A stretch of 64,000 nt of DNA, from positions 124,001 to 188,000 of the forward strand of contig NZ_AP024886.1 in the NCBI RefSeq assembly GCF_024346975.1. The letters run 5' to 3'. The notes below the pieces were generated by a model that saw nothing but the letters and a program-made list of their open reading frames with translations, was not told where the DNA came from and searched no databases. This stretch comes from Vibrio neonatus (lineage in GTDB: Bacteria > Pseudomonadota > Gammaproteobacteria > Enterobacterales > Vibrionaceae). Both the position numbers and the translations under genes were made by a program. Every line of letters starts with the position of its first letter. Position 1 is the first letter of the stretch. Positions 8,955 through 52,948 of the stretch are shown here, piece by piece.

Positions 8955-9269
8955 ATGCAGAACGATTCAATGACCCAAACGTCACAACGATTTTTACTTT
9001 TAACCAAATATCAACAAGCGGAAGCAAAGAAGCGCCAGCAGTTTATCGAGAAGTACCTGACAGAAACCGAGCCTAAACACTTTCTAGAAGCAAGCCGTTG
9101 GGAAGTATTTTGTCAGAGACACTGTGTTGACATGCAGATAGCAAAACCAAAGCGCGAAGAGTTTGCCAAGTGGTGTTTTGATTTTAAAATGTGGCAAGGT
9201 GACCTGTTTGTGTTAGCACCGCAGTCAACCAATAATGACTACTACTCAGGAAAATGCGCTAACTCATAG
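8955..9269 (+). CDS. Hypothetical protein, 104 residues
   Basis: Not recognised. A soluble, charged protein starting MQNDSMTQTSQRFLLLTKYQ, rich in Lys, Glu and aromatic residues (two Trp-Cys contexts, KWCFDFKMWQG) with predicted helical character. There is no signal peptide or membrane segment. A start at the sixth residue (8970) is also possible. It stands alone between two AT-rich spacers, so neighbours give no clue to its role. Codon use resembles the flanking chromosome. Confidence 0.55.
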   Translation: MQNDSMTQTSQRFLLLTKYQQAEAKKRQQFIEKYLTETEPKHFLEASRWEVFCQRHCVDMQIAKPKREEFAKWCFDFKMWQGDLFVLAPQSTNNDYYSGKCANS

Positions 9270-9706
9270 CATTACCCTACATGACCGCTTTACCATAAAC
9301 CCACCTCATACAACGGCGTAGTAGGCGTCACACCCCTTTTGAAGTTACGGGTAACCACCCCCTCTTCCCAAAAAAGTAAGCCTCATTTCACTCCCTTAAA
9401 ATACGCACATCTTTTGCGCTACACAGCACTATAAATCCATCAATTTGGTCATTACTTAAATGATCGCAAATGCGGTTGATTTTTATTCAAGAAATCCATA
9501 CACACCCCGACAGACATAACAAATATCAATAAAAACTTGAACTTAGCATTAATTTGGTGAATGAATGCTTGTTTTTCATTTTTAGGTGTGGATGATGTAC
9601 ATGCTAACGATAATGATTCGCATAACTGTTCAAAAACAATGAAATCTCCTTTTTCTTTAGCGAATAACTACCAATCACTCTGTCTATATCAAAAATTGTA
9701 GGATTT
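9270..9706. other. Intergenic region upstream of the TonB receptor, 437 bp
   Basis: AT-rich non-coding region. The right part carries a Fur-like box (9609-9627), and the promoter of the receptor gene must lie near it. I see no other gene or strong hairpin. Confidence 0.55.
9609..9627 (+). promoter_or_regulatory. Fur-like box upstream of the TonB-dependent receptor
   Basis: The sequence GATAATGATTCGCATAACT matches 13 of 19 positions of the Fur consensus GATAATGATAATCATTATC, with the left GATAATGAT half perfect. It lies about 80 bp before the start of an outer membrane receptor gene, the expected place for iron repression. Functional assignment is inference. Confidence 0.5.
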
Positions 9707-12157
9707 ATGGATCGTTCTAACAAAATAACCACACTAGTATTAGGGATAATTGCCGCTTTGTATGGCGGATATGCTATCGCACAAACTCAAACTGACTCTG
9801 CAACAACAGAAGAAAATGGCGACCAAGAAATCGTCGTAGTTACAGGGACAGCGCTGACCATTGACCGTTTGGAATTAGAGCAATCACCAAAAGATAATCC
9901 AACGCTATCTGAAGCCATCAAGCATGAACCTCGAGTAGGTGTTGATGACGCGCAAGGAGCAATGCAAGGTGGCGATCTAACACCAGAAGAAATCTCGTTA
10001 TCAGGTGCTAGACCTCATCAAACCAAATACACCATTGATGGTGTCGGCGTAAACAACAACACTACCTTTGGCGGTGCTAATGATTTACCTGGAAGCCTAA
10101 GTTCTGGACATACTTCTGGATACTTCATTGATACCAACCTCATTGATAGTATTGAAGTTTTCGACCATAACATTAAGGCGGAATACGGCGGCTTCACCGG
10201 TGGTGTCGTCAACGCACATGTGCGTAAACCAACCGATGAGTTTGTGATTGATTATAACTATCGTATGAATGATAGTTCTTGGAACTCCAAACAGAAAGTG
10301 GGCGTCAACTTCGCAGATGATTATGGTACCCCTATTGATGGTTCAGGTTACTACCAACCTAACTACCAAAAGCGCATGCACGCCTTGCATATTGGCGGGC
10401 CTATTAGTGAGACACAAAAGCTAGCGCTTAATATCAGTCATCAGGCATCGGATATTCCAATGGCGAATGGCAAAGATTCTGATCAAACCATGGACAACCT
10501 ATTCCTTACCCATATTTGGGAATCAGGTGCATGGCAGACAACCACAGATTTTCGCTACACAGGTCATCATAAAAACACTTTCTTAAATGACGCAAACAGC
10601 AATGATGCCGTTCAAGAAGGCAGTGATTCAGTTGTTACTCACGCAGGCATGGGCGGTACATTTAAACTGGATTACATGTTTGACAGTGGTCACTGGCAAA
10701 CCACGCTGGCCTACGATCACTTACTCGACGAACGTGAATCTGATCATGACTATTTTGGCTCGTTCTTTGTTTTCGGAGCGGATGGTCTAGAAATGTACAA
10801 TCAGGGAAGCTACGGCAACCTGAAACAATCTCAAGACTCATACTTAGTTAAATCAGTCTATTATTCTGATCCAACTTACATCGGTAACTTAGAGCTTCAA
10901 CCAAGTATCGGTATAGAAGCAACCCACCAGCAAAGTAACGTTGATCGCGCCAATGATTTTGTTGCCTACCAATATCTTGATTTTGGTAGTCCAAGCATTT
11001 CGACGTTAACTCGCTACAATGCCTCAAACTACGATGTTGATGCTCAGCAATACGGCCTATTTGCTGACAGTACAATGCAATTGGATCGTTGGAGCCTTTA
11101 CTTAGGTGCTCGTGTTGATCACATGAGTGTATTTGAGCAAACCGTATTCTCCCCTCGTATTGCTACTAGCTGGGATTTCGATCTTGTTAACACTAACCGC
11201 ATTACCTTGGGTGCTAACCGTTACTACAGCTCAAATATGCTTGGCTTCGCACTACAAGCGGAACAAGACAACTACCTTTCTCGCTCTAGTAGTTGTACGC
11301 CAAACGATGGTGATTGGAACAACCTAGACGAAAGTAACCTGACTTGTGCATCAACTGAAACATTCGATGGCGCAGCACTAAGCTCAGCAGATGTACCTTA
11401 TTCTGATGAAGTTACTGCATCTTGGGATATCAATGTCAGCAACTTCGCTTTCGATACGACATACATCTACCGTATGCAAAGAGATGGCATCACCTTCTCT
11501 GAAGACTCAGACCTAGGCATAGCGACGATCCACAACAATATCGAAAGTGACGACCACATTATTAGCCTAGAAGTTGCCACTCGTAAACCATACGAAGTTG
11601 CAGGGGGTTACTTTAGTGCCAACTGGAAAATCGCTTATAACTACCGCCGTGGTCACGGTGACTTAAAAGGCACTTATGGAGCGGGTAATAACCTAAACGG
11701 TGGCTACCAAGATGAGTGGGTAATGGTTGACGGTGAGCTAGTTCGCTACAGCGAAATGGATGTGAGCGGTTACCAATCGCCACTAAAAAGTAGCTTAGAT
11801 CTCAATATGTTCTGGGCGAACGCTGGCGTTGTTTGGAACAACCGCGTGAACTACCAGCAAGGCAAAAAAGACAATGTATATCTAGGTGTTGAATCCGTTG
11901 AAATTGATGGACAGCCAGAAACAGTCAATTCTTTGCAGTCTGTCGAGCTCGACGATCTTGTGACATGGGATATGGCCATTAACTGGACTCCAACTCAGCT
12001 TAATAACCACCTAATCCTAGGTCTAAGCGTAACCAACATTCTAAATACTCAAGAAGTTATCTCTACTTCAGGTATTCATGTTGATGGTGTCGTTGTCCCA
12101 GACGATTACTACAACTCAGGTCGACAAATCTGGCTAAACGTCAACCTGCGTAACTAA
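9707..12157 (+). CDS. TonB-dependent outer membrane receptor (FusA/YddB-like)
   Basis: An 816-residue outer membrane receptor with a signal peptide (cleavage after about residue 26, GGYAIAQ), a TonB-box-like EIVVVTGT near residues 40-48, a plug domain (ISLSGARPHQTKYTIDGVGVNNN, then IEVFDHNIKAEYGGFTGGVVN) and a long beta-barrel. It probably imports a large or iron-bearing ligand using proton-motive force via TonB. The next two genes are an M16 protease and an SbmA/YddA-type ABC transporter. That trio matches FusA-FusC-FusD (ferredoxin import) and E. coli YddB-PqqL-YddA. The last residues LNVNLRN lack the terminal aromatic residue typical of barrel proteins. Specific substrate is unknown. Confidence 0.85.
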   Translation: MDRSNKITTLVLGIIAALYGGYAIAQTQTDSATTEENGDQEIVVVTGTALTIDRLELEQSPKDNPTLSEAIKHEPRVGVDDAQGAMQGGDLTPEEISLSGARPHQTKYTIDGVGVNNNTTFGGANDLPGSLSSGHTSGYFIDTNLIDSIEVFDHNIKAEYGGFTGGVVNAHVRKPTDEFVIDYNYRMNDSSWNSKQKVGVNFADDYGTPIDGSGYYQPNYQKRMHALHIGGPISETQKLALNISHQASDIPMANGKDSDQTMDNLFLTHIWESGAWQTTTDFRYTGHHKNTFLNDANSNDAVQEGSDSVVTHAGMGGTFKLDYMFDSGHWQTTLAYDHLLDERESDHDYFGSFFVFGADGLEMYNQGSYGNLKQSQDSYLVKSVYYSDPTYIGNLELQPSIGIEATHQQSNVDRANDFVAYQYLDFGSPSISTLTRYNASNYDVDAQQYGLFADSTMQLDRWSLYLGARVDHMSVFEQTVFSPRIATSWDFDLVNTNRITLGANRYYSSNMLGFALQAEQDNYLSRSSSCTPNDGDWNNLDESNLTCASTETFDGAALSSADVPYSDEVTASWDINVSNFAFDTTYIYRMQRDGITFSEDSDLGIATIHNNIESDDHIISLEVATRKPYEVAGGYFSANWKIAYNYRRGHGDLKGTYGAGNNLNGGYQDEWVMVDGELVRYSEMDVSGYQSPLKSSLDLNMFWANAGVVWNNRVNYQQGKKDNVYLGVESVEIDGQPETVNSLQSVELDDLVTWDMAINWTPTQLNNHLILGLSVTNILNTQEVISTSGIHVDGVVVPDDYYNSGRQIWLNVNLRN

Positions 12158-12206
12158 ACCTAATGCCATTCATTTTCATCTCTTTTGAGCAATATCATCA
12201 ATAACC

Positions 12207-12241
12207 AGGAGTTGGCGCGCTTTGCGCGCCACTATCGTATG
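12207..12241 (+). promoter_or_regulatory. Hairpin-bridged ribosome binding site of the M16 lipoprotein gene
   Basis: AGGAG at 12207-12211 is 27 bases from the ATG at 12239, too far for normal initiation. Between them is a perfect hairpin, TGGCGCGC-TTT-GCGCGCCA (12213-12231). Folding this stem out leaves eight unpaired bases between AGGAG and ATG, an ideal spacing. A leaderless-distance start at TTG 12185 would place 18 extra residues before a perfect lipoprotein signal. The hairpin bridge is therefore the more economical reading, but it is inference. Confidence 0.5.
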
Positions 12242-15031
12242 AAATATATCCCCATTTTGATAGCCGCATGCATTGCTATAGCTGGCTGCCAACAAACTAA
12301 AACAGACATTGAAGATCCTCAGTTACCAATACGTCAGGATATGATCCAAGGCGAACTTGATAACGGTATGCGTTATATCTTAGTGGAAAATAACCGCCCG
12401 AAAGATCGCGTATCACTTCAGCTGGTTGTTAATGCTGGCTCTTTAGATGAAGACGATGACCAAAAAGGCATTGCTCATTTGGTTGAACATATGGCTTTTA
12501 ACGGGACTGAGCAGTTTCCTGCCAATACCCTAATTGAACATCAACAAGCACTCGGTATGGTATTTGGGCGTGATGTCAACGCCATGACCGAATATTACAC
12601 CACCTCTTACTTCCTACACTTACCAAATAGCTCAGAAGAGATGCTAAGTGAAGGTTTTAACATGCTTTCTCAACAAGCGAGCGCTCTGGTCTTCGATCAA
12701 GATGAACTAGAACGTGAACGTCCTGTTGTCGAAGAAGAATGGCGCAGCACTTTGAGTATGATGGCGCGTCTAGGCAAAGCCAATCGCCAAATTCTACTTG
12801 AAGGTAGTCGCTTTGGCGATCGTGAGCCTATTGGTGATATGGATCTAGTGCGCCATGTGGATGCTAGTCGCATCGAAGCATTTTGGCACGATTGGTACCA
12901 CCCCAATAATATGACTCTGATTGTGGTCGGTTCAACCAACCAAGCTGAAGTGGAAAAAATGCTTAATCGCTACTTTGCGCCTCTGCCGGCCAAAGAGCTT
13001 CCACAACGTCCGCAATTAAACGTACCTTTAGACAATACTCTTGATCTAAAAGTGATTGCCGACAAAGAAATTACCACTGAAGTGCTCTCTTTTAACTTTA
13101 GAGATCATGAAGTGACGCCGCATACTGAATCTGAATTGCGCGCCAAACTGGTCAACGATATCACCATGCAAGTGCTCAACAAGCGCCTGCGCGAACAATA
13201 CCAAGTAGAGAGCGACAACATCAGTAAATTGATGATGATGACGCGTCCAATGGCTGCCGGTTATCGCAACAACCGTCTCATGGTGATTTTGACGGGTAAA
13301 AACTACCTAGCGAGCACCGAAGAAGCATTTGAACAGCTCAGTCGTTTTGCCTCACATGGTTTTAATCAAGACGATCTGAATACTGAACGTCAATCCATGA
13401 TCAATCGCTATTCGCAAATGGCTGACTCACTACGCAGCACAACTAACCGCCGCGAAATGATGTCTATCTTTAACCGTTTGCGCTCACAATCGCCACTGAT
13501 CGATTCTGATCAATACGCTGTGGTGATTGAAAAACTGTCAAATAGCATCACCCTTGACGAAATCAATGCGCACCTCAAGCGCATGGTACAAACGCTCAAT
13601 CCATTAGTTATTGCGCAAGTAAAAGTAGACAACCAGGCGCAATTGCCAAGCGTTGCCCAATTACAACAAGCATGGGAATACGCCAAGGCCAATCCTCCTG
13701 CCGCCATTGCGCCGGTTACCGTAAGCAAAAAGCTCGTTTCTGATGTGCCTGAAGCTGCCAAAATTGTCGCTTACAAAGAGCAACAAGGCGTAAAAATGTG
13801 GACGCTAGAAAATGGCGCTCAAGTTTGGTTTGAATACAGTGATGAGTCGAGCAATGAACTGCGCTTAGATTATCGCGGTTGGGGTGGCAGTCAGCATCTT
13901 CCTGCTGAGCAACGCTCAATTGCACTACTACTGCGTCAAATGAGCAAGTTTGGCTACGGCGACTTTAGCACTGACCAACTGGCAATGCTAAATGCTCCTT
14001 ACTCAAACCGCATCAGCAGTTATGTAAACCAAAGCATGCACGGTTTTTCGGGTACTTCAAACCCGAAATCACTCGAAAACTGGCTACAAAACGTCTACCT
14101 ACAAATCACACAACCGCAAGTGGATGAGGAGCTGTGGCAAGCCTCTAAACGCTTGATGGAGCGTGGTATTGAGAATCAAAAAACAAGCTCAAATGGTCAA
14201 TTTAACACTGCCATCGATGCGATTCGTTATGTGAACAACCCTGAGCGCTTGCGTTTAACCAAAGAGCAATTAAGCAAGATTGAGACTAAAGATCTGTTCA
14301 ACGCATGGAATATGCTGTTTTCCAATGCTAACCAACATCACTTGATTGTGGTCGGTAATGCCGATGCAAAACAGGTGATTGAACTTGCGCAGCGTTATAT
14401 CGGCTCTTTACCATCAAGTGCAGAAGCTTACTCTCAAATTGAACTTCCGCCTCTAGGCAGCGGCAAGCATGAAGTTAGAATTGCCGCCGGCGAAGAGCCA
14501 ATGGCAATCACAAGCTTGCTGTTCAATCAGGACTTTGCTTACAGCACGCAACGTGGTGATAAAGCGTATCTATTAAGCCGCATTATTTCTAATCGTTTAC
14601 GTGAATCTTTGCGTGAAGATGCAGGCGGCGTGTATTCGGTGCGCTTTGCTATTCGACTAGACAGAAACCGCAACCAAGCCTTTGGCATGCTGAGCTATGG
14701 ACATGATCCACTGCGTGGCGAAGAGCTAAGAACCAAAGTAACGGCTGTGCTAGACAAAGTATTAGAACAGGGCGTTACCCAAAAAGAGCTTTCCGAAATC
14801 ATTGCTCAAACAAAGAACTCGCTCGCACCGGACAATATCTCAGATCGTCAGCGCCTAAATTATCTTAATGATGCGGCGCAATACGGAGATAGCCTAACCT
14901 CGGCCGCTGATTATTTGGCATGGGTAGACAGTGTCACTCCAGCTCAAATGGATGAAATGGCAAAGCAAATATTGGTCACTAACAATTGGATCGATGCCAG
15001 CTTAATGCCTGCTGAAAAAGCAGAAGATTAA
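12239..15031 (+). CDS. M16 zinc metalloprotease lipoprotein (FusC/PqqL-like)
   Basis: A 930-residue pitrilysin-family (M16) protease, essentially the length of E. coli PqqL. The zinc motif HxxEH is H80-L-V-E83-H84 (HLVEHMAFNGT), with the downstream glutamate region VVEEEWRS. The second, inactive-type half follows after about residue 480. The start at 12239 gives a lipoprotein signal MKYIPILIAACIAIAGC with lipobox IAGC, so the protease is anchored in the periplasm. It sits between a TonB-dependent receptor and an ABC transporter, as in FusC and PqqL systems. There it would cleave an imported protein such as a ferredoxin or another iron protein. Substrate is inferred, not shown. Confidence 0.88.
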   Translation: MKYIPILIAACIAIAGCQQTKTDIEDPQLPIRQDMIQGELDNGMRYILVENNRPKDRVSLQLVVNAGSLDEDDDQKGIAHLVEHMAFNGTEQFPANTLIEHQQALGMVFGRDVNAMTEYYTTSYFLHLPNSSEEMLSEGFNMLSQQASALVFDQDELERERPVVEEEWRSTLSMMARLGKANRQILLEGSRFGDREPIGDMDLVRHVDASRIEAFWHDWYHPNNMTLIVVGSTNQAEVEKMLNRYFAPLPAKELPQRPQLNVPLDNTLDLKVIADKEITTEVLSFNFRDHEVTPHTESELRAKLVNDITMQVLNKRLREQYQVESDNISKLMMMTRPMAAGYRNNRLMVILTGKNYLASTEEAFEQLSRFASHGFNQDDLNTERQSMINRYSQMADSLRSTTNRREMMSIFNRLRSQSPLIDSDQYAVVIEKLSNSITLDEINAHLKRMVQTLNPLVIAQVKVDNQAQLPSVAQLQQAWEYAKANPPAAIAPVTVSKKLVSDVPEAAKIVAYKEQQGVKMWTLENGAQVWFEYSDESSNELRLDYRGWGGSQHLPAEQRSIALLLRQMSKFGYGDFSTDQLAMLNAPYSNRISSYVNQSMHGFSGTSNPKSLENWLQNVYLQITQPQVDEELWQASKRLMERGIENQKTSSNGQFNTAIDAIRYVNNPERLRLTKEQLSKIETKDLFNAWNMLFSNANQHHLIVVGNADAKQVIELAQRYIGSLPSSAEAYSQIELPPLGSGKHEVRIAAGEEPMAITSLLFNQDFAYSTQRGDKAYLLSRIISNRLRESLREDAGGVYSVRFAIRLDRNRNQAFGMLSYGHDPLRGEELRTKVTAVLDKVLEQGVTQKELSEIIAQTKNSLAPDNISDRQRLNYLNDAAQYGDSLTSAADYLAWVDSVTPAQMDEMAKQILVTNNWIDASLMPAEKAED

Positions 15032-15051
15032 TAATTTTCGACATTAATACA

Positions 15052-15081
15052 AGCACATACGGCTTATACGCTGTATGTGCT
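15052..15081 (+). terminator. Hairpin between protease and ABC transporter genes
   Basis: Inverted repeat AGCACATACGGC (15052-15063) and GCTGTATGTGCT (15070-15081) with a 6-nt loop and one G-U pair. Only a short TTTA follows, so it may be a weak attenuator or RNA processing site inside the three-gene cluster rather than a true end. Its right arm overlaps the in-frame ATG at 15075, arguing that the real start of the next gene is 15102. Confidence 0.5.
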
Positions 15082-15101
15082 TTAGTCATCTCAGGGAATG
15101 T

Positions 15102-16838
15102 ATGTTAATCCTTAAACAATTTTATGCTATTGCAAAACCCTATTGGTCGAGCAAAGCCAGTCTCATGTCATGGTTGCTATTTGCCGCCACTGTAGCCCTA
15201 TCTTTATTACTTGTTCAGGTGATGGTGAAACTGAACGTTTGGAATAAAGAGTTTTTTGATGCCTTGGCCGCATTAGATGGTCCGCTAATTTACGATCTGC
15301 TACTTAAATTTATCGGCTTTGTTGCCATCATCGTAGTGATGAAAGTCTACGCAAAGTGGCTACAACAATGGGTGGAAATACGCTGGCGTACTTGGCTTAC
15401 TGAGCGCCTTGTCGGTCGCTGGTTGAGCAACCAAAACTTTTATCGACTCACACTTACCGAAGAGCCTGATAACCCAGATCAACGTATTGCTGAAGACATT
15501 AAATTACTCACCACCGATACCTTAACCCTGATTTTAGGCTTAATCCAAAGTGTGGCAACTCTATCTGCGTTCAGTATCATTTTGTGGAACCTTTCCAGCG
15601 ACTTTTTGTTGCCTTTATTTGATGACATCAAAATATCCGGCTATTTGCTGTGGCTGGCGCTCATTTATTCGTTAGCTGGTGCGGGCGTAACTCACTTCTT
15701 TGGCCATAAACTGCATAAGCTTTACTACCAACAACAACAGCGAGAAGCGAACTTTCGTGCTCGACTGCTACGTAGCCGCGACAGTGCCGAGCAAATTGCT
15801 TTAATGCACGGTCAACAGCGCGAAAAATCCCAGTTAGACTCCACATTTGATGATATTTCATTCAACTGGAAGTCCTTAATGGGGCGCGAAAAAAAACTCG
15901 GTATGGTCATCAACACCTACCACCAAATTGCAACTATGGTGCCATACTTTGCCGCTATTCCTGCACTGATGGCAGGCGCAATTACCGTTGGCGGACTCTT
16001 CCAAGTGCGTATGGCCTTTATGCGTGTTTACAGCTCACTCAGTTGGTTTATCTTCCGCTATGACGACCTAACGTATTGGAGTGCCACAGTTGTCCGTTTA
16101 ACCCAATTTATTGAAGCTATGGATAAGTGCGAAGCATTCTCACAAACCACGCCAAACAAAGGGGCTACTACCACTCATTCAGTAACAGAAGACAAACCTT
16201 TGGCTACACCTTACGGTTTATCTTGCGAGCAATTGAGCATACAAAAGCCAAACGGTCAGACGCTGCTTTCTAATATTTCATTGCAAGTGAAATCAGGAGA
16301 GTCACTGATGATCAAAGGGGCCAGTGGCTTAGGTAAATCGACACTACTGCGCACACTAGCTGGCATTTGGCCGTTTTATCAAGGTCAATTCCGCACCGAT
16401 GATCACAACGTGTTGCTACTTCCTCAAAAGCCTTATCTGCCCAAAAGCAGTATGCGTGAATGTTTAAGCTACCCACAAGCACCAAACTCAGACGATGCGC
16501 CATATCAAACCGCTCTAGAGCAAGTTGGACTTAGCGCACTGGCAGAAGACTTGGACAATGAAACCGAATGGCAAATGAAGCTCTCGGGAGGCGAACAACA
16601 AAAGATTGCTCTAGCCCGCGCTTTAGTACAAAAACCTCAACTGCTGATTCTGGATGAAGCCACCAGTAGCCTTGATGAACCAAGTGCCTACGCCCTGATT
16701 GAGCAATTGCGTACCCTATTGCCCCACAGCACCATCTTGATGGTCAGTCACCAAAGCCACCTAACTGAGCTGTTTGAACGGGTAATGGAGCTAGGCACAG
16801 ACAAGCACACCACAAAGCCATTGCTTTCAGCGAGTTAG
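15102..16838 (+). CDS. SbmA/YddA-type ABC transporter, fused permease and ATPase (FusD-like)
   Basis: A 578-residue half-transporter. About six membrane helices in the first 330 residues belong to the SbmA/BacA/YddA class, followed by an ABC ATPase with Walker A GASGLGKST (residues 406-414), signature LSGGEQQKIALARAL and Walker B LLILDEATSSLD. The start at 15102 has AGGGA just upstream. The longer frame from 15075 begins inside a hairpin. E. coli YddA and Pectobacterium FusD are the closest functional matches by gene order. The role is probably to move peptides or a by-product of protein processing across the inner membrane. Direction of transport cannot be read from sequence. Confidence 0.85.
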   Translation: MLILKQFYAIAKPYWSSKASLMSWLLFAATVALSLLLVQVMVKLNVWNKEFFDALAALDGPLIYDLLLKFIGFVAIIVVMKVYAKWLQQWVEIRWRTWLTERLVGRWLSNQNFYRLTLTEEPDNPDQRIAEDIKLLTTDTLTLILGLIQSVATLSAFSIILWNLSSDFLLPLFDDIKISGYLLWLALIYSLAGAGVTHFFGHKLHKLYYQQQQREANFRARLLRSRDSAEQIALMHGQQREKSQLDSTFDDISFNWKSLMGREKKLGMVINTYHQIATMVPYFAAIPALMAGAITVGGLFQVRMAFMRVYSSLSWFIFRYDDLTYWSATVVRLTQFIEAMDKCEAFSQTTPNKGATTTHSVTEDKPLATPYGLSCEQLSIQKPNGQTLLSNISLQVKSGESLMIKGASGLGKSTLLRTLAGIWPFYQGQFRTDDHNVLLLPQKPYLPKSSMRECLSYPQAPNSDDAPYQTALEQVGLSALAEDLDNETEWQMKLSGGEQQKIALARALVQKPQLLILDEATSSLDEPSAYALIEQLRTLLPHSTILMVSHQSHLTELFERVMELGTDKHTTKPLLSAS

Positions 16839-16876
16839 ATCCACTAGCTAAATACAGAAAGTAAACTGGCAAGAAA

Positions 16877-16913
16877 AAGGCCTGACTCCAATAGTGTATG
16901 GGAGTCAGGCCTT
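16877..16913. terminator. Bidirectional Rho-independent terminator
   Basis: Perfect 13-bp stem: AAGGCCTGACTCC (16877-16889) and GGAGTCAGGCCTT (16901-16913), 11-nt loop. It is flanked by AAAA on the left and TTAATTT on the right. It closes the receptor-protease-transporter cluster and the convergent DUF1254 gene. Confidence 0.85.
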
Positions 16914-16943
16914 AATTTGCCTTTATAACGTCACGTTATTGAG

Positions 16944-18431
16944 TTATTTAACCTGTTTAAAATCACTAGGTTTCCATGAGTTATCAAACCATGCTTGCGT
17001 TGGGCCATAAACACGGAAAATCACGTTATAACCTTTGCCATCCACCGTTTGAACCCAATTTCCTGCAGCGCCTTGTGGTGCTTTAGGTGCAAAGTGGATA
17101 GTGGTTGAGCCGTCCGCGTTTTTCTTCACACCTTTGCTTAATCCATCGACCCCAGCCGCTTTTTGATCTGTCTCTAACATAGAGCGGGTTTGGTTGTCGT
17201 ACACCATAAATGACCAGAACTTAGTTACAGGCACACCTGCTGGTAGCGTGACCGTATAGTGTTTTGAACCATCAAGCAGCTTGTCGTCTTGATCTCGAGT
17301 CGCTAGAAGGTAATCAGAGCCTTTACCCTCGGTTTTGGTCACCATATCTGGGGTGATACCTGTCGCCATAAAGTGGAACAATGCTCGATCATCGGCGTTA
17401 ATCACGCCATTTTCATTGTCGATAAACTCATGACCATTTACCAATGGCGTAAACCACTTTCTATCTTGATAGCGAGTCACCGACTCGTCTGGATGGAAGT
17501 AATAACTGCGCGCTTCGGCGGTCGCGATCTTTGAGGCTTCTTTTAAAATGCCTTGCATGCGTGTATCTGGCGTAAATGGCTTGCCTTTTTCAATGCCTAA
17601 ACGTTTTGCCATAGATAACCACTCTGCATCAAACACTGCTGATGGCTCATATTGGATCAACTCATTGATTTCCGAATAAAAAGACTCATCCATCGCGTGC
17701 ACTGTGTTGTACTTAACGCCCGAGAAGTTTTTAAAGTTAGTACGTTCTTGCTTGCCGTATGGGTACAACTTCATGGTCTCTTTTAGCTTAGCAATATCAC
17801 TGTCCATCGTTTGTGGCGTAGTAATCACACGCAGTAATAACCAGTGACGGTAACCCTCTGATTTAATGTGAATATACCCTTCAGGCAGCTCTCCCTGATA
17901 CGAAGAATGGTAGAAGAAGTATTTTCCGCCGTTACCTTGGTCTTGTGGATGAGTTGCTCCAACACGTGCCACAAACTTAAAGGCTGCGTTATCTACTAAA
18001 CCGAGGACGGGAGTGCCGACTTCAAGAACGACTGGTCCTTGTTTTAAGTCAATCTCACCTGATACATAAGGAGTGGTTGTGTTGGCGGTTAACCAGATAC
18101 TTTTTGCATCCAATAAGTCCTCAGAAATACCTATAGTGCGGTTTGCCTCCATACCAATGCTTTGATGACCGGCTAGTAAACCTTGAATAGAAGCAACAGG
18201 GATGCCTGAAAGGAAAACACGAACCGCATCGGCTGTATCCACAAAATCACTCGCCTTATTGTGCGTATCAAGAGACGGCGCACCATCTGTGTACGAAAGC
18301 TCACCTAAATATTTTGACTCCACTTGATTAGGAGTAATGATTGAAGCGGGTACGTCGGCCTCGTAGGTTGCAGCATTCGCAGATGCAACTAAACCCAGAG
18401 TCATGATCGTAGCAATAAGTGTTTTTTTCAT
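16944..18431 (-). CDS. Exported DUF1254/DUF1214 protein
   Basis: A 495-residue protein with a clear Sec signal (MKKTLIATIMTLGLVASANA). It has the DUF1254 region in the first half (AVRVFLSGIPVASIQGLL, GISEDLLDAKSIWLTANTTTPY) and DUF1214 at the C-terminus (VTLPAGVPVTKFWSFMVYDNQTRSML, VYGPTQAWFDNSWKPSDF). The family is widespread but its biochemical function is not established. AGGTGG lies five bases before the ATG. It is transcribed divergently from a LysR regulator 130 bp away, the usual arrangement for a regulator and its target. Confidence 0.88.
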   Translation of the reverse strand: MKKTLIATIMTLGLVASANAATYEADVPASIITPNQVESKYLGELSYTDGAPSLDTHNKASDFVDTADAVRVFLSGIPVASIQGLLAGHQSIGMEANRTIGISEDLLDAKSIWLTANTTTPYVSGEIDLKQGPVVLEVGTPVLGLVDNAAFKFVARVGATHPQDQGNGGKYFFYHSSYQGELPEGYIHIKSEGYRHWLLLRVITTPQTMDSDIAKLKETMKLYPYGKQERTNFKNFSGVKYNTVHAMDESFYSEINELIQYEPSAVFDAEWLSMAKRLGIEKGKPFTPDTRMQGILKEASKIATAEARSYYFHPDESVTRYQDRKWFTPLVNGHEFIDNENGVINADDRALFHFMATGITPDMVTKTEGKGSDYLLATRDQDDKLLDGSKHYTVTLPAGVPVTKFWSFMVYDNQTRSMLETDQKAAGVDGLSKGVKKNADGSTTIHFAPKAPQGAAGNWVQTVDGKGYNVIFRVYGPTQAWFDNSWKPSDFKQVK

Positions 18432-18561
18432 ATATCCACCTGTAATTTCAACTAAGTCTAAGTATTTGCTGTTGCGTAAAGAATAGGCACTTGCCTTATT
18501 TGCGTCTAACGACTTATGCTTATAATTGATTATGACTTAAGTGAATAATAGGCTCGCATTT

Positions 18562-19524
18562 ATGAACCGAAGCTTAGCTAGAGTGGATTTAAACCTGTTG
18601 GTGACAATGGATGTGTTGTTAAGGGAAAGAAATGTCTCTCGGGCGTCTGAAGTGTTGTTTGTTTCTCAATCTGCGGTCAGTAGAGCGCTGGCACGCCTAC
18701 GCGCCACGTTTGATGATCCTTTGTTTACTCGCGTATCAACAGGGTTAGTGCCTACCGAAAAAGCGCTACTTATCGAAAAGCAGCTACTGGTATTGCTCCC
18801 TCAACTGCAGCAAGTGTTCGGTTCAGAGCAGTTTGACCCCTATGTTGCAGACAATAGTTTTGCTATCTCTATGCCTGCTTTTTTATCTAGTGCTCTATTT
18901 CCCAAATTAGTATTAAGACTGCAAAAAATCGCCCCCAAAGTGACCATCACTGAACACTCTGCCAAAGCTAACCCGTATCCTGCTATTGACCAAGGTTATA
19001 TTGATTTTGCATTGCACTTTATCCAACCTGCCAATGCAAAATATGTGGCGACACACTTGGGTTCATTGAGACCTCAGTTATTCGTACGCAACTCTCACCC
19101 TTTGAGTAAGAATAAAGAGGTGACACTGCAAGATACGATAGCATTTCCTATGATTGGCATGGTCGTCGATGAGGATCAGCACCACTCCTTCAATGCACCC
19201 ATTTTACAAGTCTACAAAGATATGATGCACGACAATCGCCCTATATTGAGAAGCTCACAGACTCAGGTGTTGGTCGATGTGCTGATTAAAACAGACGCCA
19301 TATTATTTGGCACTAACAGCATCCAAGCCCTCCCCGATTTCGGCGAGCACTTTATTCAATTACCATCGCCAGAGTTAGATGGAAAAGAGGCGCTTGCGGT
19401 TCCGGCATACCTTATTCACCATCAAAGGTGTTCCAGCAGCGCAGCGCACCTATGGATGCAAACGATATTAATAGAAGAGTTGAGTGCATTGCTGCCACAC
19501 AATAGCAACTTACATGATATTTGA
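18562..19524 (+). CDS. LysR-family transcriptional regulator
   Basis: A 320-residue regulator with an N-terminal winged helix (RVDLNLLVTMDVLLRERNVS, then VSQSAVSRALARLRATFDDPLFTR) and a periplasmic-binding-like effector domain. The open frame allows a GTG start at 18541. The ATG at 18562 puts the first residue at the normal distance from the DLNLL motif. The divergent neighbour is the DUF1254 gene, which it probably controls through the 110-130 bp between them. The effector is unknown. Confidence 0.9.
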   Translation: MNRSLARVDLNLLVTMDVLLRERNVSRASEVLFVSQSAVSRALARLRATFDDPLFTRVSTGLVPTEKALLIEKQLLVLLPQLQQVFGSEQFDPYVADNSFAISMPAFLSSALFPKLVLRLQKIAPKVTITEHSAKANPYPAIDQGYIDFALHFIQPANAKYVATHLGSLRPQLFVRNSHPLSKNKEVTLQDTIAFPMIGMVVDEDQHHSFNAPILQVYKDMMHDNRPILRSSQTQVLVDVLIKTDAILFGTNSIQALPDFGEHFIQLPSPELDGKEALAVPAYLIHHQRCSSSAAHLWMQTILIEELSALLPHNSNLHDI

Positions 19525-19862
19525 TGCTTAATTGTACATTGCTAACTAAAGCCAAATCGTATGAGAGCTCCATATTCTCGAGTTTGGCGATGATATTCCC
19601 CAATCACAAAACAATATGCACCAATACGACACTAAAAATAAAAGCATTTAAATTCAGTACCTTAAGTGCTATTTAATTTCCAAACTCATACTGGTAAACA
19701 TTACATTCCATTTTTGCTAGTTATATCAAACCATTCGCACGACTATCATCAAGCCTACAAATTATGTCAATAACGATAGCAACTTAGCCATTTTCCTTAA
19801 TTTTCGCTTCGTTGTTTGCTTGGCATCAAATTAAATTTAATCACCGTTAGGATAGATTCCGT
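19525..19862. other. Intergenic region, 338 bp
   Basis: AT-rich spacer between the LysR gene and the 185-residue exported protein gene. No terminator with a good stem, no additional ORF and no recognisable operator was seen. The promoter of the downstream gene must lie in its right part. Confidence 0.5.
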
Positions 19863-25580: not shown

Positions 25581-27932
25581 ATGAAAAAGTACGCACTGAT
25601 TGCCTTCATCATCGCCTTTACTGGCTGTGGTACCTTCGTAGGATTAAATTTTGAAGCGCTGTTTGGCCCCGAAAAAGTTCAAGATAGAACCATCTCACAT
25701 GACTTCTCACAAGCTCAGTATTTTATCGATGAGGTGCAGCCTATTCTCGATAAACGCTGCGTTGTCTGCCACGCCTGTTATGACGCTCCCTGCCAACTCA
25801 AGCTAACCTCTGCAGAAGGCATAGACAGAGGGGCAACCACAGCAATGGTGTATCAAGGTGCTCGCTTGACCGCCACCACTCCAACTCGATTATATGAAGA
25901 TGCATTTTCCACCCAAGAATGGCGTAATCATGGCTTTTATCCTGTTTTGAATGAACGCCTACAACGCGCAGACGCCAATATAGAAGCGGGAGTAATGGCG
26001 CAGTTGTTAATTCAAAAAGAAGAGTTTCCGCTTCCGCAAGATGTCATTTTAGATGATGACGATTTTGATTTTAGCCTCGACCGCGCCTTTGTCTGTCCCA
26101 CTTCAGATTCTATTCAAGCCTATAAAGAAGAATACCCGCTCGCCGGAATGCCTTATGGCATGCCCGCGCTTGCGAATGACGAACAACAAACCTTGCTTGC
26201 ATGGCTACGCCAAGGGGCAAGCATGTCAGAGCCTGTGCCTCTCACCAAAGCGCAACTTGAAGATGTGGCTAAATGGGAGACGTATTTCAACCAAGATAGT
26301 CTAAAGCGTCAAATTACTAGTCGCTATATTTACGAGCATCTGTTTCTTTCACATATCTACTTCTCTGAGCATGAACAGACACGCTTCTTTAGTCTAGTGC
26401 GCTCGGCAACGCCTCCCGGTGAACCGGTAAAACGTATTGCGACGCGCCGACCTTATGGCGATCCACAGGTTGCACGTGTCTACTACCGCTTAATTGCAGA
26501 GCGCGAAACCATTGTCGACAAAACCCACATGCCATACGCGCTAAACCAAGAGCGCATGCAAAAGTGGCTAACATGGTTTGATAAAGCCGATTACACCATC
26601 AAAAAACTGCCAAGTTACGACATTGAAGTAGCATCTAACCCCATTCTTGCCTTTGCGGATATTCCTGTCGATTCTCGCTACAACTTCCTTTTAGACGAAG
26701 CGCAAAACACCATAATGGCCTTTATTAAAGGGCCTGTTTGTCGCGGACAATTGGCCCTAAACGTAATTAATGACCACTTCTGGGTATTCTTTACCAACCC
26801 AGGTCGCATGGACAACAAAGTGGCGACTGATTTCCTTAGATCTCAAGCCGAAAACATGGCATTGCCGGGGCAATTAGACAGCAATACCACACCTCTGTTT
26901 AACTGGGTTAAATTCTCTAAATCTCAGTCTATCTATCTGACAGAAAAGATGAACTTCATGAATGACCATTTTAAAAATGGCGAGCATCTAGACATCGATG
27001 TCATTTGGAATGGCGACGGCGCCAACCCTAACGCAGCCCTAACAATTTTCCGCCATTTTGACAGCGCAACAGTGGCAAAAGGCTTAGTCGGCAATCAACC
27101 CAAAACCGCTTGGGTTATCGACTATTCATTGTTAGAGCGTATTCATTACTTGCTCGTGGCAGGCTTTGATATTTACGGTAACTTCGGCCACCAGCTCATT
27201 ACTCGTATGTATATGGATTTACTGAGAATTGAAGGGGAAACCAATTTTATCGCACTGCTGCCAAAAGAGTCTCGCCACGATATTTTATCCAGTTGGTATG
27301 AAGGACAATCTATTGAATTTACTGATTACCTAACGCGTAACGCCAAACCTTTTGATCAAGAATCAGGCATAGAATATCGCACCAATGACCCTAAGACAGA
27401 GCTACTGACACTGCTGACTGAACATGTTTCGGCAATCCTTGAGCCGCGCTATGAAATCGCCAATACACCGCTCAAGCGAGAAAGTGAGTTGTTATTACAG
27501 CAAATCAACAGCCTAGTAGGTGGAGGCATCGAAAACTTTCCACAATTGATGACCATCAACATAGAAGCAGATAACGGGCAACAGCACGTATTTACCTTAG
27601 TGCACAGCAACGCGCACACCAATATCTCCAGCTTATTTGCCGAAGAAGACAACCGTAAACCCGAAGAAGACACTCTCACCTTAGTAAACGGTATTTTGGG
27701 CAGTTATCCAGCGGCTTTCTTGACTCTGCAAGAGCGAGAGATCCCTGAGTTACTAAAACGCATTCGAGAAGTGGATGACGATGATAACTATGAAGAACTG
27801 CTGGATCGTTTCGCTATTCGCCGTACCGATCTTAGGTTTTGGCCATTTAGCGACAAGATTCATGAGTGGTATGCCAAAGATCAACCGATAGAAAACGGCC
27901 TACTTGACTACAACCGTTTTGAAAATAGATAA
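25581..27932 (+). CDS. cti: Fatty acid cis/trans isomerase Cti
   Basis: A 783-residue periplasmic cytochrome-c-type enzyme that converts cis-unsaturated phospholipid acyl chains to trans, making membranes more rigid under solvent, heat or osmotic stress. A short N-terminal hydrophobic segment with AFTGC (possible lipobox) is followed by the heme-binding motif C60-V-V-C63-H64 within RCVVCHACYDAPCQ, characteristic of Cti. The remaining sequence (for example FVCPTSDSIQAYKEEYPLAGMPYGMPAL) fits the family across its whole length. It is monocistronic with its own terminator. Length is normal. Confidence 0.92.
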   Translation: MKKYALIAFIIAFTGCGTFVGLNFEALFGPEKVQDRTISHDFSQAQYFIDEVQPILDKRCVVCHACYDAPCQLKLTSAEGIDRGATTAMVYQGARLTATTPTRLYEDAFSTQEWRNHGFYPVLNERLQRADANIEAGVMAQLLIQKEEFPLPQDVILDDDDFDFSLDRAFVCPTSDSIQAYKEEYPLAGMPYGMPALANDEQQTLLAWLRQGASMSEPVPLTKAQLEDVAKWETYFNQDSLKRQITSRYIYEHLFLSHIYFSEHEQTRFFSLVRSATPPGEPVKRIATRRPYGDPQVARVYYRLIAERETIVDKTHMPYALNQERMQKWLTWFDKADYTIKKLPSYDIEVASNPILAFADIPVDSRYNFLLDEAQNTIMAFIKGPVCRGQLALNVINDHFWVFFTNPGRMDNKVATDFLRSQAENMALPGQLDSNTTPLFNWVKFSKSQSIYLTEKMNFMNDHFKNGEHLDIDVIWNGDGANPNAALTIFRHFDSATVAKGLVGNQPKTAWVIDYSLLERIHYLLVAGFDIYGNFGHQLITRMYMDLLRIEGETNFIALLPKESRHDILSSWYEGQSIEFTDYLTRNAKPFDQESGIEYRTNDPKTELLTLLTEHVSAILEPRYEIANTPLKRESELLLQQINSLVGGGIENFPQLMTINIEADNGQQHVFTLVHSNAHTNISSLFAEEDNRKPEEDTLTLVNGILGSYPAAFLTLQEREIPELLKRIREVDDDDNYEELLDRFAIRRTDLRFWPFSDKIHEWYAKDQPIENGLLDYNRFENR

Positions 27933-48329: not shown

Positions 48330-48336
48330 ATGATCA
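48330..48336. promoter_or_regulatory. RctB-type iteron overlapping the rctB stop codon
   Basis: GGAAGCATGATCAAGAG at 48324-48340 contains the core ATGATCA shared with the origin iterons. The rctB stop (TGA on the minus strand, 48334-48336) lies within it. A very similar flank, GGAAGCATGATCAAG, occurs in the inc-like region (50936-50950). Binding is inferred. Confidence 0.55.
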
Positions 48337-50310
48337 AGAGCCTGATGCGATCTCTCTCAATACTCGCATAACGGTTTCATCGTAATGACCTTCGAAGATC
48401 TGGCGACATACTTTACGTCGCACCGCTAAACCTAAGATCAAACGCTCGATCGAAAGATGCACACCTTCAGAATCTTGATTATATAATTCGATGGTACGAC
48501 TCAGCGCTTCATAGCTCACCACTTTGTCTTCCACTCTCAGCCAATCTAGCTTCTCTAAAAGCTCCTGACACTCTTCTCGGATAGATACAGGTGAATGACC
48601 TGTCATTGCAGACAAAGCCGTTATACTGCGTTCAAGAGCCTCTGGAGAGGTATATTTGGTTAAACTTATGGTGATCTCTTCTGCGTTGATCTCAACTAAG
48701 TGCTTACGCAATTTAACGCGACGACCTAAATGCCCTCTTGGAGAGGTTTTCTTGCGTTGAATTGGCTCAAACTCGCCATCGATGATTTCTGCTAATTCAT
48801 CGAGTTTTTTCTTAGAAACCATTTCGTGGCGCAATGGGTTAGGCAAGGTAGGTGCCATGTTACGCTTACCGGCATTGGTAGTTCTAGCGCGAGCATAACG
48901 AATTACCTCTTCCGCGTTGCATTTGATATCAACTTGGTAGTCTTTCACTTTGCCTTTGGTTTCAAGAACGCTCAGAGTTAAGTGATAGCCCCATAGATTC
49001 ACTACAAACAGTTCATCATTGCCTTTACCGTTGGACAGTTTCTTTAATTCTCGTAGCAAATCCATCGAAAAACGACGCCATTCAATGTTTCTGGCTAATT
49101 TTTGATTTAATTCGCTGAGTAACATGCTGTCGTTGGTGCGACGCGACATTCTGCTTCTGAAATACGAGTACAGTTGGAATACCAAAGTGTGCTGACGTAA
49201 AATTTCAGGCGGGAACAAGAAGAAATAATCACGCGTTAGCAACTCTTCATAAAACGACGGCTCCCAAACTAAAATATAGAGATTAGGTTTGATTTTTATC
49301 TCACCTGCTTCGTTCTCGGTTGGCGCTTCTTCAGAGGCGGTGATTGTTCGAGCTAAGAAACGAAAACGATCACTCTTAAAGCCCTCTGGCATGTTTTCGC
49401 TTAGCCACTGCCCCGTTAATTCATGCAGTTGAAAATCGGTGTATTCGATTCTGTCTATGCTGTCACGAATAGAATCACGCGCCGGACCACTGTCTTTTTT
49501 GCCCCTAAGAGACAAGATATCCGTGATATACAGTGGCGTTTTATTTGGTGCGATCTGAGCATTGATGTGATAATTATCTTGATGATGATCGTGGTATTGC
49601 ACCGTTAGGGTAAACAGCGCAAACAAGGTCATGAGATCATCTACCGTCATAATGTGTTTGGAAGATCGAGTTTCGATCACCGCACGCGTTCCAGAGATTG
49701 AAACCATTGATTTTTGATAGTTTTTACGAGTTCTTGGTGGCGCTAATGCTTGATCAATAATCCCTGCCCAGTTGGTTGGAGAAACGACAAATTGATCGGC
49801 TTCGTCTAACATTGCGGGTGGATTGTTTAATCCATGTTCGCTGAGCAGTTGTTTGTTCACATGAGTTTGAGCAAGCGCTTGGGTTTTCTTTTTCTTGGCC
49901 GTTTTCTTACTGGTTTCGGTTTGTAGACTTCCGGTGCCTAAAGTTGTGATAAGCAGAGATGGGTTTACAAACTTGTGCAGCATGGTTTTTCCAGCAAGCC
50001 CTGTTTCAAAACGGACTGGAGTTTGTCCAAATAAACCTATGTTTACTGCTGCGCGTAAGCGTTGCTGAATGGCTGCACGGGTAATTTGTCCGTCTGTTGC
50101 GTCAATAAGCTCTGTGGTAGAAACTAATCCATCTTTGCTGCTCATGCCACGTAACGAAATGAGGTTAAGCAGTTCAATGATGCTTTTGGTAACACCTTTG
50201 AAATGTTGATACTGCTCAATCCATTCGATTGCTGCATCATTGACTTCAAATAAATGGCCATCTTTATGACTTCTAGGCTGTTTAATTAAGATCTTACTGT
50301 CTTTGGTCAT
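48334..50310 (-). CDS. rctB: Chromosome II replication initiator RctB
   Basis: A 658-residue protein, the length of the characterised Vibrio cholerae RctB, with winged-helix DNA-binding segments and a very basic C-terminal third (IQRKKTSPRGHLGRRVKLRK). RctB binds Dam-methylated iterons at oriCII to start replication and 29/39-bp sites to limit it. It starts at ATG 50310 with weak GGATAATAA upstream. The gene faces the six-iteron array with only the promoter region between, and two 15-bp direct repeats lie about 100 bp before the start. Family and position leave little doubt. Confidence 0.97.
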   Translation of the reverse strand: MTKDSKILIKQPRSHKDGHLFEVNDAAIEWIEQYQHFKGVTKSIIELLNLISLRGMSSKDGLVSTTELIDATDGQITRAAIQQRLRAAVNIGLFGQTPVRFETGLAGKTMLHKFVNPSLLITTLGTGSLQTETSKKTAKKKKTQALAQTHVNKQLLSEHGLNNPPAMLDEADQFVVSPTNWAGIIDQALAPPRTRKNYQKSMVSISGTRAVIETRSSKHIMTVDDLMTLFALFTLTVQYHDHHQDNYHINAQIAPNKTPLYITDILSLRGKKDSGPARDSIRDSIDRIEYTDFQLHELTGQWLSENMPEGFKSDRFRFLARTITASEEAPTENEAGEIKIKPNLYILVWEPSFYEELLTRDYFFLFPPEILRQHTLVFQLYSYFRSRMSRRTNDSMLLSELNQKLARNIEWRRFSMDLLRELKKLSNGKGNDELFVVNLWGYHLTLSVLETKGKVKDYQVDIKCNAEEVIRYARARTTNAGKRNMAPTLPNPLRHEMVSKKKLDELAEIIDGEFEPIQRKKTSPRGHLGRRVKLRKHLVEINAEEITISLTKYTSPEALERSITALSAMTGHSPVSIREECQELLEKLDWLRVEDKVVSYEALSRTIELYNQDSEGVHLSIERLILGLAVRRKVCRQIFEGHYDETVMRVLREIASGS

Positions 50311-51715: not shown

Positions 51716-52948
51716 ATGGGAAGAATGATGAAAAGAGAATCAACGATAGATAATCTTTATCAATTAGCAGAACAAACAAAACAGGTTCAAGCTGATCGTA
51801 TTGAAATTGTATTGGAAGAGCGAAACGATGAGCACTTCCCTGCAATGTCTAAAGCATTGATGGAAACTCGCTCTGGCTTGACTCGCAGAAAGCTAGACGA
51901 CGCTATCAGCAAAATGGAAGCCAAAGGGCATCAATTTACAAAAAACAACGCCAATCACTACTCTATTTCTTTAGAGGAGGCTCATCATTTGATGGAGTCT
52001 GCCGGCGTTGAAATGTTTCACGAGCGCAAGCGAAATCAAAACAATAAGCCTTGGGTTGTCAATGTGCAGAACCAAAAGGGTGGCACAGGTAAGTCGATGA
52101 CTGCGGTTCACCTAGCGGCTTGTTTGGCACTGAATTTAGATAAGCGTTACCGCATTTGTCTTATTGACTTGGATCCGCAAGGGTCACTACGACTGTTTTT
52201 AAATCCGCAGATCAGTATTAGCGAGCACGATAATATCTATTCAGCGGTTGATATTATGCTGGATAATGTACCGGAAGATACCGATGTAGATTTAGATTTT
52301 CTGCGTAAGAATGTACTACTTCCAACGCAGTATCCAAACCTGAAAACCATTTCAGCTTTTCCTGAAGATGCTATGTTTAACGCAGAAGCGTGGCAATCAC
52401 TATCGCAAGATCAATCTCTTGATATTGTTAAGCTACTTAAAGAAAAGCTTATCGATAAAATTGCTGATGACTTTGACGTTATCATGATTGATACCGGTCC
52501 ACACGTTGATCCATTAGTTTGGAATGCCATGTACGCATCAAATGCGTTATTGATTCCGTGTGCCGCTAAGCGATTGGACTGGGCGTCAACGGTTAACTTC
52601 TTCCAGCATTTACCGACGGTATATGAGATGTTCCCTGAGGACTGGCACGGATTAGAGTTTGTTCGTATGGTGCCAACCATGTTTGAAGATGATAATAAAA
52701 AGCAGGTATCGGTTCTGACTGAAATGAACTACCTGTTACAAGAGCAAGTGATGATGGCGACCATCCCAAGAAGTCGTGCATTTGAAACTTGTGCCGATAC
52801 ATATAGCACTGTGTTTGACTTAACCCCAGGTGATTTTGAAGGGGGCAAAAAGACACTTGCAGTTGCTCAAGATGCGGTTCAAAAAAGCGCATTAGAATTA
52901 GAACGTGTGCTTCATAGCCACTGGGCGTCATTAAATCAGGAGGATTAA
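51716..52948 (+). CDS. parA2: Chromosome II partition ATPase ParA2
   Basis: A 410-residue Walker-type ATPase with an N-terminal DNA-binding region (about 1-105, including RSGLTRRKLDDAISKMEAKG) as in P1-type ParA. Deviant Walker A KGGTGKS is at 121-127, Walker B-like ICLIDLDPQG and switch region VIMIDTGPHVDPL. ParA2 forms filaments or gradients on nucleoid DNA and moves the ParB2-parS2 complex. Alternative ATGs at 51725 and 51728 are possible. It lies four bases before parB2 as part of one operon. Confidence 0.96.
   Translation: MGRMMKRESTIDNLYQLAEQTKQVQADRIEIVLEERNDEHFPAMSKALMETRSGLTRRKLDDAISKMEAKGHQFTKNNANHYSISLEEAHHLMESAGVEMFHERKRNQNNKPWVVNVQNQKGGTGKSMTAVHLAACLALNLDKRYRICLIDLDPQGSLRLFLNPQISISEHDNIYSAVDIMLDNVPEDTDVDLDFLRKNVLLPTQYPNLKTISAFPEDAMFNAEAWQSLSQDQSLDIVKLLKEKLIDKIADDFDVIMIDTGPHVDPLVWNAMYASNALLIPCAAKRLDWASTVNFFQHLPTVYEMFPEDWHGLEFVRMVPTMFEDDNKKQVSVLTEMNYLLQEQVMMATIPRSRAFETCADTYSTVFDLTPGDFEGGKKTLAVAQDAVQKSALELERVLHSHWASLNQED

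Follow-up and report, generated by a model that had tools for sequence, protein, structure and literature searches.

Protease-associated import is defined as a family in PMC6793856, where FusA homologues fall into 24 clusters, some of them marine; Vibrio is unnamed in the main text of that paper, and our literature search brought up no work describing such a system in Vibrio. The closest described systems are the Fus system of Pectobacterium and YddA-YddB-PqqL of E. coli. Ferredoxin import in Pectobacterium is reported to be driven by a direct pull from FusB, not by FusC (PMC7593965), so a relative that is free of FusB poses a real question. An Arg-Arg preceding the YP motif is given as characteristic of FusB in PMC13253070, which also quotes a FusB-box, DTILVRST, and the zinc-site residues of FusC are given as H80, E83 and H84 (PMC6071955). 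As our Fus reference we used two loci, L126 and L129 (1396 bits for the L126 receptor against 4zgv); both read TonB-REC-M16-ABC (REC, receptor; M16, protease; ABC, transporter), with fusB directly upstream of a bona fide FusA-type receptor.

The locus described here lies in a window of 64,000 nucleotides, the whole stretch of Vibrio neonatus DNA that was analysed (C2:124001-188000 of a 3.84 Mb genome in two contigs). It is a three-gene operon on the + strand (9707-16838) whose products, by open reading frames and Pfam, are a TonB-dependent receptor, a lipobox-bearing M16 protease and an SbmA/ABCD-type transporter (Table 1). The original prediction of a receptor, a 930-residue M16 lipoprotein protease with H80/E83/H84, and an SbmA-type ABC transporter in succession is borne out by open reading frames, Pfam and motifs alike. 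Its likening of the layout to FusA-FusC-FusD holds for the order of receptor, M16 and ABC, but the fusB gene found directly upstream of the receptor in L126 and L129 is missing here; the E. coli order, which it gave as YddB-PqqL-YddA, is in fact yddA-yddB-pqqL. The contig is marked as chromosome 2 by RctB (48334-50310). The gene for this initiator of Vibrio chromosome 2 is about 31 kb from the operon end, and a ParA-type ATPase is encoded at 51716.

Table 1. Coordinates of the operon genes and associated elements in the window.
Feature	Position	Strand	Basis
Fur-like box, 15-mer CGATAATGATTCGCA	9608..9622	+	11/14 against TGATAATnATTATCA; 99 nt upstream of receptor ATG
TonB-dependent receptor, FusA/YddB family	9707..12157	+	816 aa; Plug (Pfam); PDB matches; tree
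Candidate split ribosome-binding site of protease	12207..12238	+	AGGAG 12207-12211, hairpin 12213-12231, 7 nt to ATG
M16 metalloprotease, PqqL/FusC type, predicted lipoprotein	12239..15031	+	930 aa; Peptidase_M16 and M16_C (Pfam)
Intergenic hairpin, protease-transporter	15051..15082	+	13 bp, 15051-15063 with 15070-15082; then TTT
ABC transporter, SbmA/ABCD type, FusD/YddA position	15102..16838	+	ABC_membrane_2/SbmA_BacA/ABC_tran (Pfam)

Only two PDB entries matched the receptor at E ≤ 1e-3, and both assign it to the FusA/YddB type: 6ofr (E 2e-62), identified as YddB by 1750 bits to the E. coli protein, and 4zgv (2e-36), labelled ferredoxin receptor (FusA). The receptor has a TonB-box-like EIVVVTG at residues 41-47, with E41 and V45 invariant in 8/8 sequences. 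Its plug spans 55 residues between two anchors, compared with 56 in YddB, 64 in the FusA type and 47, 43 and 48 in the other three receptors of the genome; an extended plug loop is described as a mark of protein-binding receptors in PMC5095587. For YddB, PMC6793856 reports an extracellular cavity that is 28 Å wide.

The adjacent gene encodes an M16 protease of the FusC/PqqL type with HxxEH and a distal glutamate. Its PDB matches were headed by PqqL (6ofs, 7e-84), followed by the M16 peptidase 9ldy and then by 6b03 and its kin (6b03 3e-72), 6b03 being FusC (1880 bits to the L126 protease). HLVEH occupies residues 80-84. A motif match had pointed to E165 as the third zinc ligand, but this was rejected on alignment to the FusC reference, in which E165 of FusC, its third ligand, falls on E167 of the window protease. 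The frame also opens upstream of the ATG, at a TTG (12185), which was rejected as the start; the ATG is supported because in-frame stops stand at -18 in orthologues L037 and L094. The genome holds no second full copy of the protease, the two other matches being 29% partial ones.

A pattern match placed a lipobox, IAGC, at the N-terminus of the protease with Cys17 and a Gln at +2; the +2 residue governs outer-membrane sorting of lipoproteins. The same pattern was found in the proteases of 20/20 Vibrionaceae loci (L034-L053; L040 from an incomplete start) and is lacking in E. coli PqqL. Among 18 proteases from L125-L143 it was matched in nine (L125, L127, L128, L132, L135, L138, L140, L142 and L143, the match in L140 being doubtful by eye) and unmatched in nine (L126, L129, L130, L131, L133, L134, L136, L137 and L141), of which L131 and L141 are nevertheless lipobox-like by eye. 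As a predicted feature the lipobox is therefore common in these proteases, not universal, and both characterised ones, FusC and PqqL, are without it; in contrast to these two, the window protease is predicted to be lipidated.

For the transporter the best PDB match was 6tqe, which we take to be Rv1819c, a multi-solute importer, and ABCD proteins came next; the NCBIfam model SbmA (peptide antibiotic transporter) matched far below its cut-off. Translation likely starts at ATG 15102, a longer open reading frame from 15075 opening inside the intergenic hairpin.

Trees were inferred with IQ-TREE from chosen rows (36 receptors, 31 proteases and 25 transporters) and rooted at the midpoint. In all three the window-type genes form one clade at 100/100, with L126 (Fus) and E. 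coli outside it; the E. coli rows are long branches whose place is unsure. The window genes thus do not group with FusA, FusC and FusD, although among the transporters the window clade has the L126-containing clade as its sister (96/89), which speaks against a full split from Fus. Window-type M16 genes also stand beside receptors of other clades at L132 (829-3636) and L141 (13646-16471); because these two proteases fall in the window clade and their receptors elsewhere, receptor and protease seem exchangeable in evolution.

Compared with Pectobacterium Fus, the locus has receptor, M16 and ABC in the same order and HxxEH at the same residue numbers. It differs in that FusB was not found, in that receptor and protease belong to other clades and in that, by pattern only, its protease is a predicted lipoprotein and not the non-lipidated periplasmic enzyme of Fus proper (E. 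coli, L126 and L129 have no lipobox). Judged on sequence, the operon is not Fus proper, and the Fus-like protein-import cluster of the original prediction stands as a member of the FusA/YddB-type family (by sequence, neighbourhoods and trees) but not in this narrower sense. With E. coli YddA-YddB-PqqL it shares the three families, its best solved matches in YddB and PqqL and nearly the same plug span (55 vs 56), but neither gene order nor clade, E. coli (ABC-REC-M16, PqqL without lipobox) being a separate long-branch lineage. Two other Vibrionaceae Fus-type clades (L041-L044; L045-L053) encode the same families in 13/13 loci, with a protease lipobox, and have Fur-like sites of 12-14/14 ahead of nine of the 13 receptors (perfect at L046 and L052). 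Unlike the window, all 13 of these more distant loci have the order REC-ABC-M16 and their receptors are 24-26% identical; there is no intergenic room for a hairpin because the M16 start overlaps the ABC end or lies within 4 nt of it in 13/13. At L095, a fourteenth distant locus of the family, receptor and protease are present with no ABC match.

A genome-wide search for TonB_C (E ≤ 0.001) returned two genes, both on C2 away from the operon. One, with exbB/exbD, is presumably neighboured by hutW-like and haem receptor genes, and the other we take to be accompanied by exbB/exbD and a TPR-like gene. Their YP motifs stand in the contexts TAVNYP and IEPRYP, with no Arg-Arg, and this search found no cognate FusB, that is, an operon TonB with Arg-Arg ahead of YP. 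The TonB of L126 and L129 reads LHRRVNYP, with Arg-Arg ahead of YP, and both loci have the FusB-box DTILVRST.

Upstream of the receptor we scored 15-mers against TGATAATnATTATCA, which we take to be the 7-1-7 Fur consensus. The best 15-mer within 250 nt (shuffles per 1000 reaching the score in brackets) matched at 11 positions in the window (67), L034 (87) and L037 (63); at 12 in L035 (26), L036 (21) and L057 (6); at 13 in L038 (0), L039 (1) and L125 (0); at 14 in L094 (0) and at 9 in L040 (807). A box of at least 11/14 is thus found in 10/11 loci, window included, though the window and L034 are near-copies, and it is perfect in L094. It lies at -76 to -100 in 9/11 loci; L125 has it at -23 and L040 (9/14) is without one. 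The Fur-like box of the original prediction is accordingly present and conserved in position, but the window copy is not significant alone, and it is credible because of this conservation across loci; the 64-kb window holds nine 15-mers of at least 11/14. The positionally conserved candidate box lends support to a putative iron regulation of the operon.

Elsewhere in the same genome, Fur-like scores were 12/14 at tonB1/hutW and 9/14 at btuB, meant as a negative; the haem receptor (8/14) and CirA-like receptor (9/14) have no box by this consensus. Four receptors with a Plug domain are encoded in the genome: the window receptor and BtuB-like, haem-type and CirA-like ones. NRPS condensation and IucA/IucC domains, the only two families sought, gave no match in it at E ≤ 0.001. 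When carriers were compared with 14 non-carriers (taken in list order from the genomes of the genus that gave no match, neither random nor tree-corrected), IucA/IucC domains were found in 0/9 carriers vs 7/14 non-carriers, condensation domains in 2/9 vs 0/14, and 4-7 vs 3-15 Plug receptors per genome, which amounts to a hint at most.

The operon also has two hairpins that are new here, one splitting the ribosome-binding site of the protease and a second, covarying one before the transporter. In T4 genes 25 and 38 a hairpin lies between Shine-Dalgarno (SD) and AUG, and for gene 25 it shortens the spacing from 27 to 11 nt, as given in PMC3014915. The protease hairpin, with 8 bp and a 3-nt loop, likewise lies between SD and ATG: the spacing from SD to ATG is 27 nt linear and would be 8 nt if folded. 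An SD ahead of such a hairpin was found in 8/9 loci compared (8/11 when L040 and L125, which are without the arrangement, are included), with 26-30 nt linear and 7-13 nt folded; L039 has the hairpin without an SD upstream. Like T4, the hairpin would shorten the effective spacing; unlike T4, it belongs to a bacterial chromosomal operon and is known from sequence alone. No chromosomal split ribosome-binding site was found by title or abstract in our literature search, which is weak evidence of absence. The hairpin score was reached in 0-8/500 shuffles per locus (81 in L038) and the 32-nt folding energy in 0-12/500 (27 in L038, 63 in L039); the lowest 32-nt energy upstream of 40 other starts in the window is -7.4, vs -16.1 at the protease. 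Covariation in this stem is modest: weak on eight rows (64/500 shuffles reach the score; L039, with no SD before its hairpin, was excluded and the L057 row is out of register), while on six rows, without L057 and the near-copy L034, 11/500 reach the score and 43/500 the count of two-sided pair changes. In the second hairpin five pairs are changed on both sides and the covariation score was reached in 0/500 shuffles (seven rows, without L040 and L094, in the latter of which an unrelated hairpin occupies the site; L038 lacks sequence at this point). This hairpin possibly acts in mRNA stability or attenuation. It was rejected as a genome repeat, its exact pattern occurring at one place in the genome.

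Close receptor orthologues (55-100%) were found in 8/296 Vibrionaceae genomes and 8/227 genomes of the genus, giving nine distinct carriers with the genome itself included. A search of 5.8 billion proteins, with the 8000 best candidates scored, gave 31 matches, at least 27 of the receptor subfamily (38-97% identity); those named among the matches listed belong to Vibrio, Photobacterium and Shewanella. All three genes are present in 19/20 Vibrionaceae loci taken as best receptor matches, L038 stopping at a contig edge, and the order REC-M16-ABC is kept in orthologous loci L034-L040 where complete and in L057, L094 and L125. Frames are broken in M16 of L037 (8100-10882) and L049 (9729-12322) and in ABC of L040 (5272-7004), breaks that may reflect decay or sequencing error; on their account, some carriers may be able to do without the system. 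A profile search of the wider order at E ≤ 1e-3 matched 136/394 genomes, many weakly, a figure not to be read as the number of Fus-type receptors; at 20 loci chosen among the stronger matches M16 was nearby in 18 and ABC in 13.

The named Vibrio carriers among the matches listed are halioticoli, ezurae, rarus, kasasachensis, stylophorae, panuliri and rhodolitus, and spp. UCD-FRSSP16_10, UCD-FRSSP16_30, J1-1 and SM6. V. halioticoli comes from abalone and V. panuliri from spiny lobster. V. ezurae and V. rarus are described from abalone gut (PMC3877837), UCD-FRSSP16_10 and _30 come from red abalone feces (PMC5026440), V. rhodolitus is described from rhodoliths (PMC6256479) and V. stylophorae from coral. 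Because the abalone carriers are for the most part closely related, carriage cannot be separated from clade, and no niche enrichment is claimed.

Taken on its sequence, the operon is well supported as a protease-associated import system of the published kind (PMC6793856), and we consider it probable that it serves the Fur-controlled import of a small folded protein, most likely an iron-bearing one. Such a cargo would be bound by the receptor and carried across the outer membrane by one of the two general TonB systems, not by a dedicated FusB; beside the exit, where it is probably anchored to the outer membrane, the M16 lipoprotein would clamp and cut it, and the resulting peptide, cofactor or iron complex would enter the cytoplasm through the ABC transporter, with protease output set by the hairpin-bridged ribosome-binding site. 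Import is favoured by the FusA/YddB and PqqL/FusC matches, the kept gene order, the 100/100 clades, the conserved box and the long plug span, and also by the 12/14 site at tonB1/hutW and by a genome with no IucA/IucC or condensation domain and four Plug receptors. Counted against it are the weak window box, the boxless L040, haem and CirA-like receptors, the FusB that was not found, L095 without an ABC match, ABC in only 13/20 order-wide loci, the frame breaks and a heading in PMC6793856 by which iron-limited growth in LB media is not supported by PqqL and YddB. An algal iron protein may fairly be guessed as cargo, since abalone or coralline algae are the source of several named carriers. Far more tentatively, and with the odds rather against it, macroalga-eater vibrios largely without siderophore synthesis might live off the plastid ferredoxin of algae or a comparable iron protein from them, taken up intact, with a general TonB opening the receptor, the tethered M16 replacing the pull or trap of FusB, and the hairpin tuning protease dose.

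A protein or peptide importer serving amino acids, another metal or a cofactor, before which the Fur-like box would be marginal or indirect, is unlikely: the best transporter match to 6tqe, the SbmA/BacA family match and the YddB/PqqL cargo, given as unknown in PMC6793856, would suit it, but the box keeps its position in 9/11 loci and is perfect in L094, and perfect boxes also precede the Fus-type receptors at L046 and L052. The pairing of an M16 protease with an SbmA-type transporter (by the NCBIfam name, its match being far below cut-off) could also fit detoxification, in which bacteriocins or antimicrobial peptides from host or algae are imported and destroyed; a Fur-like box is not expected there, an energised receptor importing poison would be costly and the receptor belongs to the FusA/YddB type, all of which make this quite improbable. 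Many TonB-dependent receptors import small chelates, and a TonB-box-like motif is present here too, but that this one is a common receptor for siderophores or small ligands, with a protease and a transporter as unrelated neighbours, seems the least credible reading, the only solved relatives at E ≤ 1e-3 being FusA and YddB, the plug span long and an M16 gene lying near 18/20 related receptors in the wider order.

If import of a folded, probably iron-bearing protein is what the operon does, a lineage that keeps receptor, protease and transporter, in which FusB was not found and the protease is seemingly membrane-tied, offers a natural test of the role of FusB, and could reveal how gut vibrios with seemingly little siderophore production obtain iron. 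The split ribosome-binding site would add a chromosomal case, conserved across species, to an arrangement for which we found a precedent in phage T4.

Searches around the operon returned little else: Rfam gave no match on 9000-17000, a plasmid collection gave two records of about 1% coverage each, and promoter (13 vs 14.1) and terminator (7 vs 7.6) scans were at shuffle level, and no promoter is claimed on this basis. Across 11,472 nt the window matches L034 (V. halioticoli NBRC 102217) at 95.3% DNA identity. The alignment has a gap at 16918-19694, and the DUF1254/DUF1214 and LysR genes at 16944-19524 are absent from that place in L034. Further downstream, at 25581-27932, the window encodes a fatty acid cis/trans isomerase (CTI, 904 bits).
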